From the IMG/VR virus record IMGVR_UViG_3300020186_000013, positions 124,001-188,000 of that record: a DNA stretch of 64,000 bases; one strand, 5' to 3'. How positions within the stretch are numbered: the stretch's first letter is position 1; every line of letters begins with the position of its first letter. The position numbers and the translations under genes are program-made. The notes beneath the pieces are model-generated. The model saw only the letters and a list, made by a program, of their open reading frames with translations. It did no database searches and was not told the DNA's origin. Source of the stretch: a virus. This document shows, piece by piece, positions 10,565 to 21,772 of the stretch.

Positions 10565-13500
10565 TTACCGAAGCAAGCTCAGCCAGTCGGAGCCGCCCTT
10601 CTTCATAACCGCTGGAGTTCGGAACTTTGCAAGTTCCGGATAGCGGTCGAAGATGGCGTCCTTCTTCGGGTCGCCCGTCGAGCGAAAGTTGACCAAGTTA
10701 TTGCAGTCCGCCTGCTGGAGCTGGAACTTCGACGCAAGCTCGGAGAGCTCGTCCTGGAACTTGTCAAAGATCTTGGCCTCGTCCACGGACAGTTGAGGCT
10801 TGACGGGGGTGGCGGGTGCTGCGGGAGCGGCCTTCTGGATCGGCGGGATCGACGGGGAGACGGACTCGTCGCCCTGGTAGCCCGGACCGGTCAACGGGGT
10901 CGTACGCCGGTTCGGGTAGGTGAGGTCGATCGGCCGACGGGTGGACGCGGGCGGCATGCCGAGGTTCTGGTTGTATTGGTCCGCCACCTTGCGGTCCTGC
11001 TCGCGTTTCACCGCAGCGACCATCAGCGTCTTCGCGTAGTCGCCGTACATTGGCCCTTTAACCGGGTCGCGGCGGATGTTCGTAAGTTGGGTCGACGACA
11101 GTTTCGCCGGGTCTCCGTATTCCTTCAGAAATAGGGCCTGTTGGTCCGCCATCCGATTCGCCGAGGCAGCCTCCTCCTCCTTCACCTTGTGTTTTCGCTC
11201 GGTGGCCTCTTGCGAAAACTGGGCTTGGAACTTCTGGTCCAGTGTCTTGTGCCACTCGGGGTCGGTGACGTTCTGGGACCGGATCTCGGCGATGCGTTCT
11301 AGGGCTTTCTGCTTCAGCTCCGGCGGCGTGTCCGGATTATTAGCCCGCCGGTGCAGCAACGCATACTCGCTAGCGGCGTTGTTCTGCTCGTCTTGGGCGA
11401 TGTCGCGACGCTCTTGGATTATCGAGCCACCAGTGTGCCCGAGCAGCCGAGCCTGGTGGGCGGGGTTCAAGAAAAAGTTGGCGGCGTCACTGACAGGTGA
11501 CTCCGACTTGCCGGCGAACAGGTTAAACGCATCTTGCAGGGACTGCTCGTTGCGATTTCTCGTGCCCTCGTAATTGCCGCCGATTGCGTTCCCGATATCC
11601 TCGCCCACATCGTTACCCACCATCAGCGGTCGCACGAACTTGCCGAGGAACCCGGCCACGCCCATACGTCCCGGTGCTGCCGGGACACCGGGAGCCGGAT
11701 TGACCGCCTTAGTCCCGGCCAGGGCGTTGCCGATGCGAGAAAAGAGACTACCCTCGCTGCTGACGGTACGTAGGACACGACCGGTTGCCGCCGCAGTTAG
11801 CCCGCCTGCCGCCAGAGCCGCGGGAGCCGCCTTGGCCACGTCAGCCAAACCGATATTCGGCATCTGCGGCCCGCTGTCGGCTTGATTCTGCCCCGGCATG
11901 ACGCCGCCACCGGGGTGGTAGTATTCTTCCTGCCCGTCGCCGTCCTCGTCGCCGTCACCCGGAACACCGCCCATGCCTACCCCACGCCGGCCTGGGTACT
12001 TCGACTGCATGTTGTGGCCGTGGATCTGCCCGGTCAAGACACCCCAGGCGTTCTGATCGAGGCCGTGACCGATCGCCCCGATGCCGCCCTCTTCGATATG
12101 CTGCTGAGCCTGGGTAGGGTCCATGTGGTGTAGGTAGTTCTGGCCGCGTCGGAACCCGCCGTTGTACACGACCGGGTTCTGCTGCTGAGCCTTCTGCTGA
12201 ATGTTGGCGGTCGTCGCCGTGCCGACGCCACCGACGTAATCGTACGACGGCTTCGGGGCCGCAGGGGAGGCCCCAGTTGAGGCCCCAGTAGGAGCCCCAG
12301 TCGCCGCTGGTGGCGAGACCTGCGGTGCAGGCGGCGGTGCAGGCGGCGGTGCAGGCGTCGTCTTCGGGGCGGTCGACGCGATCGGTTTGGGGGCAGTGGC
12401 CGGGTCGTCGGCCTTCTTCAACCGAGACTTCTTGTCCTCCGACCACTTCATTAGGCTGGCCCAGTTCTTCTTGGGGGCCGGTGCCGGTGCGGGTGCCGCC
12501 GGGGGTTTCGCGGCCACGGGCACGCTCGGTCCCGACAGGTCGGGTTTGCTGGTCGGCTCGGGCTGCCGGACCATACCGACCCGGCCGAAGTCCACGGCCC
12601 GTGACAGACCCGGAACAAAGGACGTGCCCAGCTCGTTCGACGTGCCGCCGCGTTGGGCCGCTTCGAGCAGGCTGGCCTTCTGCCCCGACCCGTACATCTT
12701 GGTCATCCAGTCGGGGTCGTGGGCGACGTTCGCCATGCCCCGGATCATCTCGGCCTGGAACGGCGGCGGCTCGGCGTGGACGGTGACGTTGTCGACACCG
12801 AAGTGCTCGAACTCCTTCAGCATCGACGGCCGGACCTTGGTGCCGATCGTGTGGTGTAAGATCGGCCGTTCTAGGTACTTGCCCAGGGCCTTCTTCGGGT
12901 GAACGGACTCGTGCCCGTCGCGGGGCTCGTAAGTGTGCTCCAGCGTCGAGTACGGGACGACGTCGTCCTGTACATGGTCGCCGTGCTCCTCGGTAAGCCG
13001 GACGTGGTTGATGAGGCCGCGTGACAAGACCTCCAGGTTCCGCCGGTTGACCTTGAGCCCGGCCCCCCGCATGGCGTCACGCATGGCCCCCATGAAGTAC
13101 CGCCGGCCCTCACCGATGCCCTTGTGCTCGATCACGGTCGACGGATTCGGCCACCCGTCGGAGAGTATGTCACCAGCTTCGACCTGGTCTCCTGGTTTCA
13201 CCCTCGGGTCGTACCCACGACCGACATAGTGCTGTTGCCCGTCGATGGTGATGAACTTGCCGCCCGCCGGGGCGTCCTCAATCCGCTGGACGATGCCGTC
13301 GACGGTGGAGTGGGCTGCACCGCCCTTGAACGTCTTGGGGGCCTGGATGAGCTGGTTGACGGCCTCGAAGCCGCTCACGGACTTCTCCTGACCGGCGACG
13401 CCGCCGGAGTGCTTGGCACTCAGCTGGCCTTGCTGGAGTGGCTCGGACAGGGCCTGGGCGGCTTGGAGGCCGATCTGCTCGCCCCGCCCAGGGAGACCGC

Positions 13501-14422
13501 CCCGCTCGCGAACGCCGACGTCACGGGAGTAGACACCGCCATCGGGTGAGCCGCCGACCAACGCACTGCGGACGAGGATCTTGTCGTGGCCGAGGGCCTT
13601 CATGTGTTTGAGGATCTTTGGCGTCAGCATCATGTGCCGCTTGTACGGCCCGACGTCCTGGGCCAGGAGGGCACCCTCACTGTCCATGTCGTCGACATCG
13701 ACTGGGAGGCCCCGGTTGGCAGGGTACTCCTGGTCGTGGTCGAGGGCACTGACCATGAGCCGGTGGCTGATCTGGTTCAACTGCTTGGACAGGAAGCCAG
13801 CGTCCTGGGTGGCGAACTTGGTCGCCATGACGCCCTTGCGGGCACCGTACGTGCCAGCCCAGTATTCGGCCGGAGTGAGCCCCTGGCTGTACGAGCGTAT
13901 CACAGGCAGGGGGATGACGTTGTCGTGGTGGTCGGTGTACAGCATGTCGCTGCCACGGAGCGACGACAGGTTCATCTCGTTGCCGCGACTGCCCGACTGG
14001 ACCTGACGGGCCAGGGGGTTGCCCTCGGCGAGGGACTCGGCGTACACGTCCTTCATCTGCTGATCTTGTGCAGCCCCAGCCTTCCGGATGATGAGTTCGT
14101 GCCGCTGCGTGTCGGTGAGCTTGTCGTCGTTGAGGATCTTGTCGATGTCGCCCTGGAGGCTGACGCCGATCTTGTGGGCCGACTTGGCCTTGAGGAGGTG
14201 TTCAAGGGAAAAGCTGTTGCCGCCCGAGCGGGTGGCGACGTGCCGGCCGACGTCGGCCAGCTTCTTCGAGACTTCCAGATACTTCTCGGGGCTCTTCTCA
14301 GCGATCTCCCGGAGAAGGGCGTTCATGCCCTTCTTGTCCATCACCCGGTCGTAATTGCGGTACTCCTCCGGCAACGCTTCGTTGATGAGGAGCTGACCCA
14401 TCGTTGTGCGGAGGGGAGGCAT
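10565..14422 (-). CDS. RNA polymerase beta prime, C-terminal part, fused to virion-like tail
   Basis: The first 600 or so residues match bacterial beta prime downstream of the catalytic loop. TTMGQLLINEALP near the start corresponds to RpoC TVGRALLWEIVP. VQSGSRGNEMNLSSLRG followed by GLTPAEYWAGTYGARKG at 141-197 is the F-loop/bridge-helix region, and GEQIGLQAAQALSEPLQQGQ near 314 is the conserved GEAVGIIAAQSIGEPGTQ block. After about residue 620 comes a proline/alanine linker and roughly 660 residues of glycine-rich and glutamine-rich sequence like the flanking virion proteins, ending MKKGGSDWLSLLR. The catalytic NADFDGD half is encoded separately at 16507-18255. The tail suggests packaging in the virion (inference). 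Confidence 0.92.
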   Translation of the reverse strand: MPPLRTTMGQLLINEALPEEYRNYDRVMDKKGMNALLREIAEKSPEKYLEVSKKLADVGRHVATRSGGNSFSLEHLLKAKSAHKIGVSLQGDIDKILNDDKLTDTQRHELIIRKAGAAQDQQMKDVYAESLAEGNPLARQVQSGSRGNEMNLSSLRGSDMLYTDHHDNVIPLPVIRSYSQGLTPAEYWAGTYGARKGVMATKFATQDAGFLSKQLNQISHRLMVSALDHDQEYPANRGLPVDVDDMDSEGALLAQDVGPYKRHMMLTPKILKHMKALGHDKILVRSALVGGSPDGGVYSRDVGVRERGGLPGRGEQIGLQAAQALSEPLQQGQLSAKHSGGVAGQEKSVSGFEAVNQLIQAPKTFKGGAAHSTVDGIVQRIEDAPAGGKFITIDGQQHYVGRGYDPRVKPGDQVEAGDILSDGWPNPSTVIEHKGIGEGRRYFMGAMRDAMRGAGLKVNRRNLEVLSRGLINHVRLTEEHGDHVQDDVVPYSTLEHTYEPRDGHESVHPKKALGKYLERPILHHTIGTKVRPSMLKEFEHFGVDNVTVHAEPPPFQAEMIRGMANVAHDPDWMTKMYGSGQKASLLEAAQRGGTSNELGTSFVPGLSRAVDFGRVGMVRQPEPTSKPDLSGPSVPVAAKPPAAPAPAPAPKKNWASLMKWSEDKKSRLKKADDPATAPKPIASTAPKTTPAPPPAPPPAPQVSPPAATGAPTGASTGASPAAPKPSYDYVGGVGTATTANIQQKAQQQNPVVYNGGFRRGQNYLHHMDPTQAQQHIEEGGIGAIGHGLDQNAWGVLTGQIHGHNMQSKYPGRRGVGMGGVPGDGDEDGDGQEEYYHPGGGVMPGQNQADSGPQMPNIGLADVAKAAPAALAAGGLTAAATGRVLRTVSSEGSLFSRIGNALAGTKAVNPAPGVPAAPGRMGVAGFLGKFVRPLMVGNDVGEDIGNAIGGNYEGTRNRNEQSLQDAFNLFAGKSESPVSDAANFFLNPAHQARLLGHTGGSIIQERRDIAQDEQNNAASEYALLHRRANNPDTPPELKQKALERIAEIRSQNVTDPEWHKTLDQKFQAQFSQEATERKHKVKEEEAASANRMADQQALFLKEYGDPAKLSSTQLTNIRRDPVKGPMYGDYAKTLMVAAVKREQDRKVADQYNQNLGMPPASTRRPIDLTYPNRRTTPLTGPGYQGDESVSPSIPPIQKAAPAAPATPVKPQLSVDEAKIFDKFQDELSELASKFQLQQADCNNLVNFRSTGDPKKDAIFDRYPELAKFRTPAVMKKGGSDWLSLLR

Positions 14423-16506: not shown

Positions 16507-18255
16507 CTACTCCATGATGTGCACGGGAGTGTCCTCGGTGATCTCGCCCTGGTGGAGGGCCGCGAGGGCGTCCTGCTTGTTCCGGAAGACGCGGGGCCGA
16601 CCCTTCTCCTTCTTGGCCGTGCTGGCGTGGTGCAAACCGCCCAGGTACTCCTGGCCGGGCACGTGCACGGGGCTCTTGAAGTCGGCCGGGGATAGAAGGT
16701 TTTTCGACGGCAGCATCCGCTCCAGGGCCTCCTTCTTGGCCTCCTCGGAGGTCGGCACGTGGAACTGCATGGCGTCACCGTCGAAGTCAGCGTTGAACCC
16801 CTTGACGATCAGCGGGGACACCTGCATCGTGTCGCCCTTCACCAGCTTGGGGCGAAACGCCATGATACCGAATCGGTGGAGAACGGGTGCCCGATTGATG
16901 AACACCGGACGGTCTTCCATCTCCTCCTGGAGGATCGACCGGGCCTTGTCGGTCTTATCCTTGACGTGCTGGAGGGCCTGGCTGATCGGCATCCCCTGGC
17001 GGTGCATCCGCCGGACGAGGAACTTGGAGTACACCTCGAACGCCTTCGACTCGGGGATGCCTACCGTGTCCATGTCGTAGTCCGGGTTCGGGCTGATCAC
17101 CGCCCGGCCGACGTTGTCGACAGTCGAGGACAGGAGCTTCCTTTGCACCGTGCCGAACTTGGGGGACGTGCCGAAGATGCTCTTCAAGATGCCCTTGACG
17201 TTCTTGTCTTGGCTCTTCTGGGTGATCGGATCGCCCAGGCCGGTGACCGCCTTGAAGGCGTGGTACACGGCCAACCGTTCGGCCCCCGCGTTGTCGTGGC
17301 CGACCATGCCCTTCATCTCGCCGAGGTTCTTGTTGGCCTCGATCAGCTCCTTGTAGAGGTAGTTCGGGTCCGATACCAGCGGGATGCCCGACTGCCCCAT
17401 CATCGACACCGGGCGGAACGCAGGAGGCAGGACGGGGGCGTGATCGAGCATCCAGTCCTTGGGGTGCAGGCCGAGGCTCTGGGCACTCTTCAGGTAGCCG
17501 AGCTTGCGAACCGCCTCGTCCCGCTTACTACGACTCGACGACTGAACCTGGGTCCTAGCGGTCGCCAGCTCCTTGGTCAGGTTGATGTCCTCCAACGCGG
17601 CCTTGAGGGCCTTCGGGCCGGTGCCGTGCCCGCCAATCGTCTCAGTGCCCGCCAACACGCCCTCGAACTGCTTGGCCGTCAACCCGAGGATTCGCCGCAT
17701 CGGCTCCTCCATGACAGGGTTGGGCATGGGCTCGTCGAACTTAATCTTCGACCACTGCTTGCCGCCGTGCCCGCCGGTCATCGCCGGGTCGAACAGACCC
17801 CCGGCCACTGGCTTCAAGTCCCGGTCGAAGTTGACCGTCTCGCCGTGCGTAAGGACGCGGTTGCCGCCCAAGGCGTCCACGTCCTTGTTGGTCATGGCCA
17901 TGATGTGAGTGCGAGGGCCATCCCGGACGACATTGATCCCGGACGCCTTGAGCTGGTGGTGGAACTTGTCGTACACCATCGGGGTCTTCACAGCACTGGG
18001 CATATGTCCCTGCATGAACTGCAACCAGTATTGCTCGTTCCGCTGACCCCGGATACTGCCCACGTCCCGGAGATTCTCGACGGCCCCGTGGGACAGGAGG
18101 GCATTCACGTCGAGCATCGAGATCCGCTTGGAGTTCGACACCAGGACGTTGTTGGCGAAGTACAGGTGGATGCCGTCGACAGTGACGTCGTACACGTCGA
18201 CCAGCCCGTTCGCCTTCGTGACGCCCCGGTAAGGGCCGATGTACGCCACCTTCAT
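16507..18255 (-). CDS. C-intein + RNA polymerase beta C-end fused to beta prime N-part
   Basis: This 582-aa protein starts with a 41-residue C-terminal intein half: VYDVTVDGIHLYFANNVLVS then Asn41, with Ser as +1 residue. Next comes KRISMLDVNALLSHGA, matching the RpoB end motif GGQRFGEMEVWALEAYGA. Beta prime follows without a break: VAGGLFDP, RPVFINRAPVLHRFG near 440, the Mg-binding NADFDGD at about 488-494, and a segment equivalent to RpoC up to just before TVGRALL. The remaining beta prime is at 10565-14422. ATGA overlap couples it to the 134-aa gene upstream. The usual penultimate intein His is Ser here. Confidence 0.93.
   Translation of the reverse strand: MKVAYIGPYRGVTKANGLVDVYDVTVDGIHLYFANNVLVSNSKRISMLDVNALLSHGAVENLRDVGSIRGQRNEQYWLQFMQGHMPSAVKTPMVYDKFHHQLKASGINVVRDGPRTHIMAMTNKDVDALGGNRVLTHGETVNFDRDLKPVAGGLFDPAMTGGHGGKQWSKIKFDEPMPNPVMEEPMRRILGLTAKQFEGVLAGTETIGGHGTGPKALKAALEDINLTKELATARTQVQSSSRSKRDEAVRKLGYLKSAQSLGLHPKDWMLDHAPVLPPAFRPVSMMGQSGIPLVSDPNYLYKELIEANKNLGEMKGMVGHDNAGAERLAVYHAFKAVTGLGDPITQKSQDKNVKGILKSIFGTSPKFGTVQRKLLSSTVDNVGRAVISPNPDYDMDTVGIPESKAFEVYSKFLVRRMHRQGMPISQALQHVKDKTDKARSILQEEMEDRPVFINRAPVLHRFGIMAFRPKLVKGDTMQVSPLIVKGFNADFDGDAMQFHVPTSEEAKKEALERMLPSKNLLSPADFKSPVHVPGQEYLGGLHHASTAKKEKGRPRVFRNKQDALAALHQGEITEDTPVHIME
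18133..18255 (-). other. C-terminal split-intein half (41 aa)
   Basis: Block F (VYDVTVDGIHLYFAN) and block G (NVLVSN followed by Ser) are recognisable at the very start of the protein. Asn41 would cyclise and Ser+1 would be the C-extein nucleophile. The normal His before the terminal Asn is replaced by Ser, a variation known in some active inteins. Confidence 0.9.
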
Positions 18256-18656
18256 CGCTGCTTCCTCGTCCAGAAGTCGTGTAGGCCGGACAGGGCTTGG
18301 CCGGTCATGCCACGCAGCTTCATCATCAAACTCCGCTGCATGGCCCGACGGGGGTCGATGCTCTGGGGCGTGGCGGCTTCGACCGGGGCCGGCTTGGCTG
18401 CCGGCTTGGCCATCGGCTTACCCGGCCTCGCCCGCCGCCGGGGCGTGGGCTTCTCGGAAACCTCGCCGAACCTTTGGAACTTGACCGGGGCGAACGGTAA
18501 GTCGACCGGCGGACGGTTGCCCGCCGTCATGAGCGTCTGCTGGCCTGCCCCGAGGGGTGAGCCCGACTGCCCCTCGCCGGGGTCGGCCGGGTCGACGGCA
18601 GCCGTCTTCATGCGGAGAGCTGCCGCCTTGGCCGCGAGAATGTTGAGCCCGTCCAT
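18252..18656 (-). CDS. 134-aa protein lodged between the two split-intein genes
   Basis: The start overlaps the stop of the beta gene (TGATG) and its stop overlaps the next ATG, so the three genes are translationally coupled. The product begins MDGLNILAAKAAALRMKTAA, then has a proline-rich, basic middle (RRRARPGKPMAKPAAKPAPV) and a helical end (MQRSLMMKLRGMTGQALSGL). There is no LAGLIDADG, HNH, GIY-YIG or Vsr-like motif, so it is not a recognisable homing endonuclease although it sits where one is expected. It looks like a small virion protein or an RNA polymerase accessory factor. Confidence 0.7.
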   Translation of the reverse strand: MDGLNILAAKAAALRMKTAAVDPADPGEGQSGSPLGAGQQTLMTAGNRPPVDLPFAPVKFQRFGEVSEKPTPRRRARPGKPMAKPAAKPAPVEAATPQSIDPRRAMQRSLMMKLRGMTGQALSGLHDFWTRKQR

Positions 18657-21600
18657 CACGCCCCCTGTAGTTCGTCGCCGACGACCAGGTCGCCGGCCAG
18701 TTTCCTCGATCCGTCCGCCAGGATGATCTCGTGGTTCCTGGTGACCTCCAAAACACGGCCAGTGTCGGTCACGACCTCCATGATGTCGATCGGCTTGACG
18801 GCGAACGTGAACCAGTCGACGACCGGCATCCACATGAGCTTGCCGCCCGTGGCTTTCTTGGTCAGGACGTTGATGGCCAGTTTCTTCTGCACGACCTCGG
18901 CGATCGACACCAGGCCGCTCGACTCGGTATGGAGGAAAACCCGCTCGGTGAAGCAGCCGCTCTCGCCGCCCTTGCTGGGCGTCTCGTCCATGCCGTACCC
19001 GCCGCCGCCACGACCCTGGCCCTTGCTTTCGGCCGTGTGGTGCAACTTCATAAAGAACCGGTTGCCCGTGTGGACGCCGGGGATCTTGGACCCCGTGGCC
19101 GGATCGACGATGTCCTCGGTCGAAGTCAGGCCGTGCTTCCGCAGCTCGTCAATCGTGAACTGGTTTAAGTCCTTGATGCTACCGAAGTCTTCCAGCTTGT
19201 ACCTCTTGCCTGTCAACGCGGCAATCTTGCCTAGCTGGGCCTCGACCATCTGGGCTGGATTGGTACGACTGATCACACCGAGGGGGTTGAGCAGGATCTC
19301 GTAGGGCTTACCGTTGCGGTCGTGCGGCATCTGGTGGTCGGGGACGACGGCACTGATGACGCCCTTGTCGCCGTACCGGCCGGAGAGTTTGTCACCCACC
19401 TGCATCTGTGAAGAAGACTTAACGAGGACGACAGGCCCGTCCTTGCCCCGTACGACGTCGGTAACGACCCCAGAATCATGATGCTGCCACACAACGGATT
19501 GGTCATTGTGTCCCGCCTGCTTCTTCTTGTGGACCTTGTTGTCTGCCCGGTCGTTCTCGCGTGCGGCCAAAATGAGAGGTTGGCCGTGCTCGATTTTGGT
19601 GCCAGGTTTGATGATGCCGTCGTCGTCGAGGGACGCCAGCGTCTCCCGGTCAAACTTGCCGGGGAACAAACTGATGAAGTTCTTCTTCCCCATCTTGTGC
19701 TTGTCGTCAACCATCACCTCGTGGTGGTACATGTGGTCGCTCGACAGCCGCTTCGCCGCCGTCTCCGAGATGACCTGAGCGTCCTCGAAGTTGTACCCCT
19801 TCCACGGCGTGTACGCCACGCGGAAGTTCGCACCGAGGGCCGCAGCCCCGGTGTGGTCGGTGTAGTTGCTCTTGGCCAAGAGCTGGCCCGCTTTGAATGT
19901 GTCCCCTGGCTTCAGTGCAGGAGTATTGTGGATGTACGTCTTCCGGTTGAAGGGAAAGTTGTGATAGAGATCGACACGATCTTTGCGTCCGTCTGCGTAT
20001 TGGACGTCCATCCCTCCGTCACTGATCCCAAGGACCCGACCCCCGTGTTCACCAGCATGCACGGCCCCGAGATGACGTCCGTATTCTTCTTCAAAAGATC
20101 TCGCTCCACCCGATCCTGGAAGGCCCGATTGAACCAGGGGTGCTTCTGCGTTCGTAAGTGGTAGTGCTTGAGTGAGCATCCGAGACGCCATAGCGACCCG
20201 TTGCCCTTTGACCATGCTCTTGAGCGGGACCATGTTGCCCAGGGGCGAGAAGGCATTCTCAAAGTGGGGCAACTCGAATTGGACTTCGTTGCGTGGGACA
20301 TATGCGATCTTGCCTCCCTTCATGACCGGGATACGTTTCGCGGTCGACGCCAGTCCGCCGGGGAACGCGATCGCCGCCTCGGCCAGGTCCTGGGGGCTCT
20401 TCCAACCAAGCCTACCCGTCCTAACGTCCCGGAACTCGGAGTACATGCGACCGTCGCCGCCTTTTCGTGCCCCCCGAGCCATGTTCAGGTCGATGCCAAC
20501 GCGGAAACTCTCGGGCGTCCGCAAGGGGTCCATGAACCCCATATGACCGGGCTGCACGCTCCGGGCGTCGTCGGGAACCGACTCCATCGACGGGATGCCG
20601 CCTTCACCCAGGCGGGTGATCCGGCTCTGCTTGTCGAACACCTCGGCAGGGTTGATCTCTTCGATCGCCTGGCCCAGGCCAGAGCCCAGGAGCGTCTGCT
20701 CGATTTGCCGGGTCAGTGCCCCTGACGGCATGTCTTTCAGGTGTCCCTTCATGCTCATCTTGTGAAACAGCATCTTCTGGACGCGACCGTGGTCGCGGGC
20801 CACCCGCTCGGAGATCAGGTCCTCGGGACCCAGCACGGTCTGGAAGTGCGGGGCGTCCCGGTCGTCGACTTCGTCCTCGCCCCGACTGACGGCCAAGAGC
20901 TTCTTGGTTGCCGCCAGGATGGTGTCCTTATTCATCCGGGTGTGGGGGTGTTTGAGCGTGTACTTGGTGACCTCGGGGTCGACCTCCATGTCCTCGAACT
21001 TCTTGACCAGGGCCAGGCGACGGTGCTGCTCGTCTGGGTTGTCCCGGTCGACCTTACTCAGAATCTTGTTCTGGAGCTTGGTCAGTACCCCGCCCTCAGA
21101 CTTGAGCATATTGCTCTGGTACAGCTCGGACCCCCAGTGCTCATACAGCTCTCGGTCGGTCGTACCCATCGCCTTCAGGAGCGGCAGCAACGGCATCTCA
21201 GCTTGGCCGATCTTGATCTTGAACACGCCCTTGGCCGGATCGAGCAGGTAACGGTGGGAGACGCCCTTGCCGGGCAGGATGTTGGCGTGGGACTCCAGCT
21301 CACCGTTGTCCTTGCGACGGGTGAAGACACCGGGCATGAGCCGCTGCTGGTGGTTCAAAGTGTAATCGTTACCGCCGTGGACAAACGTGCCCATGTTCGT
21401 CAAGTGAGGGACGCGGGCGATAACCTGCTCACGGCGATCGACGAGAGCACCCGTGGCGTTGTCGGTCAACTCCCACGTGCCCTTCATGCGGCGGGCCAGG
21501 GTGCCGCCAGTCAGGAGGGCTTGCTTCCGTTGGTCGATACTGAAGTGGTCAGGGTCGATGTACTCCGGACTGTGGAGCCGGAGAGTGTGCCGGACGTTGG

Positions 21601-21772
21601 AAACCGGCTGAATGCCCTGAGCCGCCTTCAGGACGTTGCCGTAGATGTTCTGCCGCGTCTTGACGTGGTCGCCAAAGTCGCGGATGTGGGACTCCGGAAG
21701 CACGGGCGGCGGTGGCGGCGTGCTGCCGGGCAGGAGGGACGGACCCTTATCGGGGATGAGACTGTCAGGCAT
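18656..21772 (-). CDS. RNA polymerase beta N-part carrying N-terminal split intein
   Basis: The 1038-aa protein matches bacterial RpoB over much of its length. DARSVQPGHMGFMDPLRTPE corresponds to the rifampicin-region motif VHPTHYGRVCPIETPEG; GYNFEDAQVISE is present; GDKLSGRYGDKGVISAVVPD and LNPLGVISRTNPAQ match the DKxAGRHGNKG and LNPLGVPSRM blocks. At residue 940 RpoB homology stops after GGESG and an intein begins with Cys1, running 99 residues to the stop. The missing beta end is encoded at 16507-18255. Mature function requires trans-splicing (inference). The gene leads an overlapping operon with the 134-aa gene. Confidence 0.94.
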   Translation of the reverse strand: MPDSLIPDKGPSLLPGSTPPPPPVLPESHIRDFGDHVKTRQNIYGNVLKAAQGIQPVSNVRHTLRLHSPEYIDPDHFSIDQRKQALLTGGTLARRMKGTWELTDNATGALVDRREQVIARVPHLTNMGTFVHGGNDYTLNHQQRLMPGVFTRRKDNGELESHANILPGKGVSHRYLLDPAKGVFKIKIGQAEMPLLPLLKAMGTTDRELYEHWGSELYQSNMLKSEGGVLTKLQNKILSKVDRDNPDEQHRRLALVKKFEDMEVDPEVTKYTLKHPHTRMNKDTILAATKKLLAVSRGEDEVDDRDAPHFQTVLGPEDLISERVARDHGRVQKMLFHKMSMKGHLKDMPSGALTRQIEQTLLGSGLGQAIEEINPAEVFDKQSRITRLGEGGIPSMESVPDDARSVQPGHMGFMDPLRTPESFRVGIDLNMARGARKGGDGRMYSEFRDVRTGRLGWKSPQDLAEAAIAFPGGLASTAKRIPVMKGGKIAYVPRNEVQFELPHFENAFSPLGNMVPLKSMVKGQRVAMASRMLTQALPLTNAEAPLVQSGLPGSGGARSFEEEYGRHLGAVHAGEHGGRVLGISDGGMDVQYADGRKDRVDLYHNFPFNRKTYIHNTPALKPGDTFKAGQLLAKSNYTDHTGAAALGANFRVAYTPWKGYNFEDAQVISETAAKRLSSDHMYHHEVMVDDKHKMGKKNFISLFPGKFDRETLASLDDDGIIKPGTKIEHGQPLILAARENDRADNKVHKKKQAGHNDQSVVWQHHDSGVVTDVVRGKDGPVVLVKSSSQMQVGDKLSGRYGDKGVISAVVPDHQMPHDRNGKPYEILLNPLGVISRTNPAQMVEAQLGKIAALTGKRYKLEDFGSIKDLNQFTIDELRKHGLTSTEDIVDPATGSKIPGVHTGNRFFMKLHHTAESKGQGRGGGGYGMDETPSKGGESGCFTERVFLHTESSGLVSIAEVVQKKLAINVLTKKATGGKLMWMPVVDWFTFAVKPIDIMEVVTDTGRVLEVTRNHEIILADGSRKLAGDLVVGDELQGA
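18659..18955 (-). other. N-terminal split-intein half (99 aa)
   Basis: Block A starts CFTERVFLHTESSGLVSIAE with Cys1 encoded by the codon at 18955-18953. Block B is VLEVTRNHEIILADG with the TxxH motif, followed by KLAGDLVVGDEL. The half ends six codons after block B-type sequence, with no endonuclease attached. Confidence 0.92.

Follow-up and report, generated by a model that had tools for sequence, protein, structure and literature searches.

We report that a large virus of bacteria encodes the β subunit of its RNA polymerase in two pieces, whose facing ends are recognizable as the halves of a split intein. The window analyzed here is a 64,000-nucleotide stretch (positions 124001–188000) of the 208,145-base virus record IMGVR_UViG_3300020186_000013. 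In this window (Table 1), gene 1 encodes β up to residue 939 followed by a predicted N-intein, whilst gene 2 begins with a predicted C-intein and continues with the end of β and the N-terminal half of β′ (β′N). Very probably, the fractured β-β′N gene is rejoined at the protein level by trans-splicing, giving a chain of ~1480 residues that assembles with the separately encoded C-terminal half of β′ (β′C).

RpoB/Rpb2 homology spans gene 1 to about residue 926–930 (Pfam Rpb2_6, E = 9.5e-55; PRK00405, E = 1.3e-80), and the 99-residue tail that follows the β homology begins CFTER and contains TRNHE. The N-terminus of gene 2 reads MKVAYIGPYRGVTKANGLVDVYDVTVDGIHLYFANNVLVSN; the next residue is Ser, after which come the β end and β′N, with RpoC homology from about residue 195 onward (TIGR02386, E = 6.5e-64). 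Gene 3 covers positions 548–1050 of TIGR02386 (E = 9.9e-55) and also matches Rpb1_5. Homology to both β and β′, together with the catalytic motif NADFDGD, marks the product as a phage multisubunit RNA polymerase. An initial annotation of the window had given both genes these coordinates and reading frames, and had read gene 1 as RpoB homology followed by a 99-residue N-intein and gene 2 as a 41-residue C-intein after which RpoB resumes. Both descriptions are borne out, the first by the RpoB/Rpb2 profiles and an intein_Nterm match at the tail, and the second by an intein_Cterm match and by the fit of the seam in unsplit relatives.

The seam in unsplit relatives

Our comparison set comprised the 80 first-fetched viral relatives, retrieved with gene 2. 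β and β′N share a single open frame in 74 of the 80, and in the unsplit relatives β residue 939 abuts gene-2 residue 42 to the base. Three of the remaining six (L002, L003, and L004) have this split intein, and the other three (L007, L022, and L066) are interrupted elsewhere. The nearest intein-free relative, L005, reads APAKGGESGSKRISMLDVNALLS over the seam, which equals the spliced prediction from GGESG onward; the predicted seam GGESG|SKRISMLDVNALLS (939|42) is identical in L005, and its sequence over the junction point, GGESGSKRISMLDVNALLS, is the same as that of the predicted spliced product. In the cultured Salmonella phage Arash, this chain is annotated as one coding sequence (gp206, 1525 amino acids). 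Homologues without this intein thus have one continuous protein. Since the one-frame relatives have the exact seam, the fused β-β′N is the ordinary state of the group, which the split intein would restore, and the comparison indicates that the fusion is ancestral.

The initial annotation had placed a split intein at the junction of β and β′. The split intein stands, but its location does not: alignment to solved bacterial β chains ruled out the subunit boundary, and puts the seam inside β at a conserved GG|QRF motif, near Thermus β residue 1028 by hand count and ~70 residues before the β C-terminus. The annotation had also predicted that splicing would yield all of β plus the NADFDGD half of β′ as one chain of about 939 + 541 residues. 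The lengths (1480 amino acids) and the presence of β′N with its motif hold, and the chain matches that of the unsplit relatives. However, its halves do not meet at a natural subunit boundary, nor is the β-β′N fusion the intein's doing. Because the seam lies inside β, the intein would restore a chain that relatives encode in a single gene, rather than join two subunits at a natural boundary. The native residue at +1 is Ser in 17 of 61 deduplicated chains and Ala in 42; Ala at this position could not serve as nucleophile.

Intein identity and recurrence of the two tails

Two more distinct phages were recovered when the intein halves served as queries, one represented by L002 (a 234,886-base record) and the other by L003 and L004 (two records, identical here); additional viral scans found no other phage with this split intein. 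The polymerases of the window phage, L002, and L003 are 62–68% identical to one another, and the L002 and L003 inteins are 42–44% identical to that of the window. Invariant in all three phages are the block A nucleophile (C1), block B (T72-R73-N74-H75, of the TxxH type), and, in blocks F and G, H129, the terminal N140, and Ser+1. A tree of the 61 deduplicated chains places L002 and L003 as sisters (support 1.0), grouped with the window and the intein-free L005 (0.965). L005 thus lies among the split phages; the support of its node is 0.56, so that either one gain plus a loss or repeated gain would fit the tree.

NCBIfam intein_Nterm matched residues 944–1016 of gene 1 (E = 0.013) and intein_Cterm residues 20–42 of gene 2 (E = 0.024), each weak alone but placed exactly at the facing end. 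In a search of the whole record the values were 1.1e-4 and 3.8e-4, respectively, and the C-terminal match exceeded its cut-off. When joined head to tail, the two halves (140 residues) matched the Npu (Nostoc) DnaE intein, 2keq, over residues 10–137 (E = 4.2e-5). A profile of the joined intein from the three phages matched the same intein collinearly at E = 1.8e-7, and the matches listed for it were inteins or intein-like domains. We also built family hidden Markov models (HMMs) from the other two phages only, and ran them on all six-frame ORFs (open reading frames) of the window. The N-half model found the gene 1 ORF at E = 3.2e-26 (next-best ORF, 0.17) and the C-half model the gene 2 ORF at 4.6e-11 (next-best ORF, 1.5). 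The specificity of these HMMs and the PDB matches rule out chance similarity to inteins. With an N-intein at the end of one ORF and a C-intein at the beginning of another, the two tails are, on sequence grounds, the halves of one class-1 split intein with a Hint fold.

The C-half also resembles the C-terminal ends of contiguous inteins that reside in other genes of cellular genomes, for example VEDVYDVTVDSVHAFDANGFIAHN and IEDVYDITVADVHRFSANGIVVSN, the latter of which shares the SN ending of the window C-intein. A search of cellular genomes with the C-half for further split loci turned up only inteins in other genes. Charge segregation of the kind seen in DnaE is not evident (N-intein −2, C-intein 0).

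Arrangement of the halves and the case for trans-splicing

The three window ORFs overlap at their ends. The gene 1 stop overlaps the start of a 134-amino acid ORF (TGATG), the stop of which overlaps the start of gene 2 (ATGA), and purine-rich sites lie upstream of both starts. These overlapping starts suggest that the ORFs are translationally coupled. Translation of gene 2 begins exactly at the C-intein. L002 has an intervening ORF of 637 amino acids with weakly similar ends, and in L003 the halves are 31 bp apart, with GGGAGG about seven bases upstream of the gene 2 ATG. These records are metagenome-derived contigs, and an error of sequencing or assembly might have made a split from a contiguous intein. 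However, the split occurs in three distinct records, and the halves are in different frames or are parted by the 134- and 637-amino acid ORFs, both of which have their own stop, start, and ribosome-binding site; such an error is thus extremely improbable. A homing endonuclease between the halves was considered and rejected: neither intervening ORF had a nuclease or other Pfam/PHROG match, and L003 has only its 31 bp. Small ORFs near the polymerase genes (window 18252–18656; L002:6091–8004; L005:9648 and 10677) have N-termini in common, for example MITASELGKLAARVK and MDGLNILAAKAAALRMK, and may belong to a single accessory family in these phages.

We propose that gene 1 yields β(1–939)-IntN and gene 2 yields IntC-β(C-terminus)-β′N. 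The intein fragments (99 + 41 residues; class-1 type, with Cys1, TRNH, Asn, and Ser+1) would bind and then splice in trans, leaving the native GGESG-SKRISML within a single ~1480-residue chain. This chain would pair with the separately encoded β′C (10565–14422) as the active form of the phage RNA polymerase. The split itself probably originated in an ancestor that encoded β-β′N in one gene, when an ordinary intein broke near the loop where endonucleases are usually inserted. As an interpretation of the sequence, the trans-splicing predicted by the initial annotation is supported by the seam of the unsplit relatives and by the recurrence of the split arrangement in L002 and L003/L004.

Several observations weigh against trans-splicing. 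The penultimate intein residue is Ser in all three phages, rather than the usual His. Penultimate His is usual but not obligatory, and Ser is a tolerated variant that is also present in Gottesmanbacteria inteins; the Npu DnaE intein likewise ends SN. An AlphaFold model of the N-half alone is of low confidence (mean predicted local distance difference test score, 53), although its top 19 fold matches were all inteins. The ratio of nonsynonymous to synonymous substitution (dN/dS), 0.42–0.65, is a weak test of selection and mild support for constraint, because dS is near saturation. Lastly, the β and β′ of other jumbo phages are spread over several genes yet make up an active enzyme, and no intein is reported for them (PMC7598289); a split therefore need not call for rejoining.

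The altered penultimate residue, and the existence of those active split subunits (PMC7598289), would also be compatible with non-splicing relics, in which case the polymerase would assemble from separate pieces in the manner of phiKZ and AR9. We consider this improbable, given that the three phages, for all the divergence of their polymerases, have the same catalytic residues at the same motif spacing, that gene 2 begins exactly at the C-intein, and that dN/dS is below 1. Moreover, the unspliced proteins would carry 99 + 41 extra residues inside a conserved β motif. Inteins whose C-terminal residues are altered commonly undergo cleavage as a side reaction, and the halves might instead cleave without ligating, trimming both subunits to their extein ends for non-covalent assembly. 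Yet Cys1 and Ser+1, which ligation needs together, are both retained, and the free ends would fall in a motif that runs without a break in over 70 relatives; cleavage alone is thus very improbable.

Returning to trans-splicing, it is possible, although we put it forward only tentatively, that split-intein capture is a live route to the fragmentation of phage RNA polymerase genes. The stages of capture may be represented by unsplit genes (L005, Arash), a closely spaced split (L003), and a split with a gene in between (window, L002). Were capture at work, trans-splicing would also be a control point, since no complete β-β′N chain would exist before both halves are made.

Table 1. Coordinates of the split polymerase locus in the window, and of loci with a stop after the intein in its relatives
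Feature	Position	Strand	Description
Gene 1	18656–21772	minus	1038 amino acids; β residues 1–939 + 99-residue N-intein
Gene 1 N-extein	18956..21772	minus	RNA polymerase β residues 1–939, end GGESG; single-ORF relatives align to 939
N-intein (predicted), 99 amino acids	18659..18955	minus	Cys1, block B TRNH; intein models and family HMM
Intervening ORF, 134 amino acids	18252..18656	minus	Basic, proline-rich; between intein halves
Gene 2	16507–18255	minus	582 amino acids; 41-residue C-intein + β end + β′N
C-intein (predicted), 41 amino acids	18133..18255	minus	Own ATG; VYDVTVDGIH ... VLVSN, C-terminal Asn
Shine-Dalgarno-like AGGA	18263..18266	minus	7 nt upstream of gene 2 ATG; read directly
Gene 2 C-extein	16510..18132	minus	Ser+1, last ~70 β residues fused to β′N with NADFDGD
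Gene 3, β′C + long extension	10565..14422	minus	Separate subunit gene; TIGR02386, Rpb1_5
Post-intein stop	L007:5804–5830 (also L006, L066)		TGA
Post-intein stop	L022:7577–7600		TGA
Post-intein stop	L150:4826–4845		TAG
Post-intein stop	L175:2568–2590		TAA

Known inteins and other interruptions in the group

Phage genes fractured at split inteins include those of gp41-1, NrdJ-1, IMPDH-1, and others. As in those cases, an essential gene of a phage-like genome is broken here at an intein, the halves lie near each other, and the N- and C-inteins are about 100 and 40–48 residues long, respectively. In contrast, the host protein here is a multisubunit RNA polymerase. The split DnaE intein has its halves far apart on the chromosome and Cys at +1. 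The cyanobacterial Npu/Ssp DnaE inteins are the best solved relative of the assembled window intein, with similar sizes and an SN C-terminus; they differ in that DnaE is a cellular DNA polymerase gene, whereas the window intein has Ser+1. Split inteins in fractured phage genes have been described (Dassa et al., 2009, as cited in a passage of PMC3653736), and whereas the fractured gene of Dassa et al. has a homing endonuclease gene standing free between its halves, none is recognized there in the window. The AceL NrdHF split intein also resides in a fractured phage gene (PMC7891396), but is of class 3, whereas the window intein has class-1 residues.

Contiguous inteins occur in eukaryotic and viral RPB2, RPA2, and RPC2 (PMC1635734). 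Matched by family rather than by residue-level site, they share with the window intein a location at conserved sites of one subunit family, near the active center. However, they are contiguous, mostly have endonuclease domains, and belong to eukaryotes and their viruses. The polymerases of jumbo phages (phiKZ, AR9; PMC7598289) and of a metagenomic Caudovirales clade (PMC7481178) are likewise phage-encoded, with β′ broken after the double-psi barrel, but in the jumbo phages the pieces of β are not rejoined (PMC7598289). Neither paper uses the word “intein”, and the splitting of jumbo-phage polymerase genes was attributed to introns (PMC7598289). Our literature search, which covered subscription journals thinly and hence is no proof, did not turn up any RNA polymerase with a previously described split intein. 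Given the known RPB2-type contiguous inteins and the split inteins of fractured phage genes, the present case would add a new host protein to those of an established class of element, here without a recognizable endonuclease. If trans-splicing does occur, a phage core transcription enzyme would be under its control, and the question posed in PMC7598289, of how the RNA polymerase genes of phages came to be divided, would have a testable answer. The three divergent natural inteins, all split and located at the same site, are also possible new ligation tools.

Other interruptions were seen in the relatives. Four distinct relatives have a contiguous intein at β ~796, after which the extein reads SGRYG and then stops (Table 1). 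At these loci there is a 5–7-base insert before GATAAAGG, which 63 other matches lack, and a 12–13-bp RNA hairpin ends just before the Gly codon (z −4.6 to −5.1); that of L175 has one synonymous compensatory change from G-C to A-U. L069 has an intein at β ~796 with neither stop nor hairpin. The layout resembles bypassing in phage T4 gene 60 (PMC5009743), with its 5′ stem loop, Gly take-off codon, and stop, as well as a Gly landing codon in three of the four. By this analogy, the loci look like candidates for programmed ribosome bypass (GGC stop GGT); alternatively, they may be broken alleles.

The polymerase gene of L150 (L150:140–8880) appears to have about five contiguous inteins, near β 533, 616, 796, 836, and 915, and gene 1 of L003 (L003:2807–7969) has two (TPE|C, HHTAE|C) besides its split-intein N-half. 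In L122 (L122:6001–9207), a contiguous intein lies in β′N after GGNNG, and its N-end resembles the window N-intein; perhaps the two are related inteins at different sites of the same gene. In Vibrio phage D181 (OZ196140.1 144071–149585, L112), a homing endonuclease gene inside β breaks the gene in two, and D69 has a one-piece match at this position. Finally, the window's phage has a second intein in its large terminase subunit (G000:C1:46007–46072; L104), with an intein_Cterm match above cut-off and a PHROG 675 match at E = 1.3e-44.
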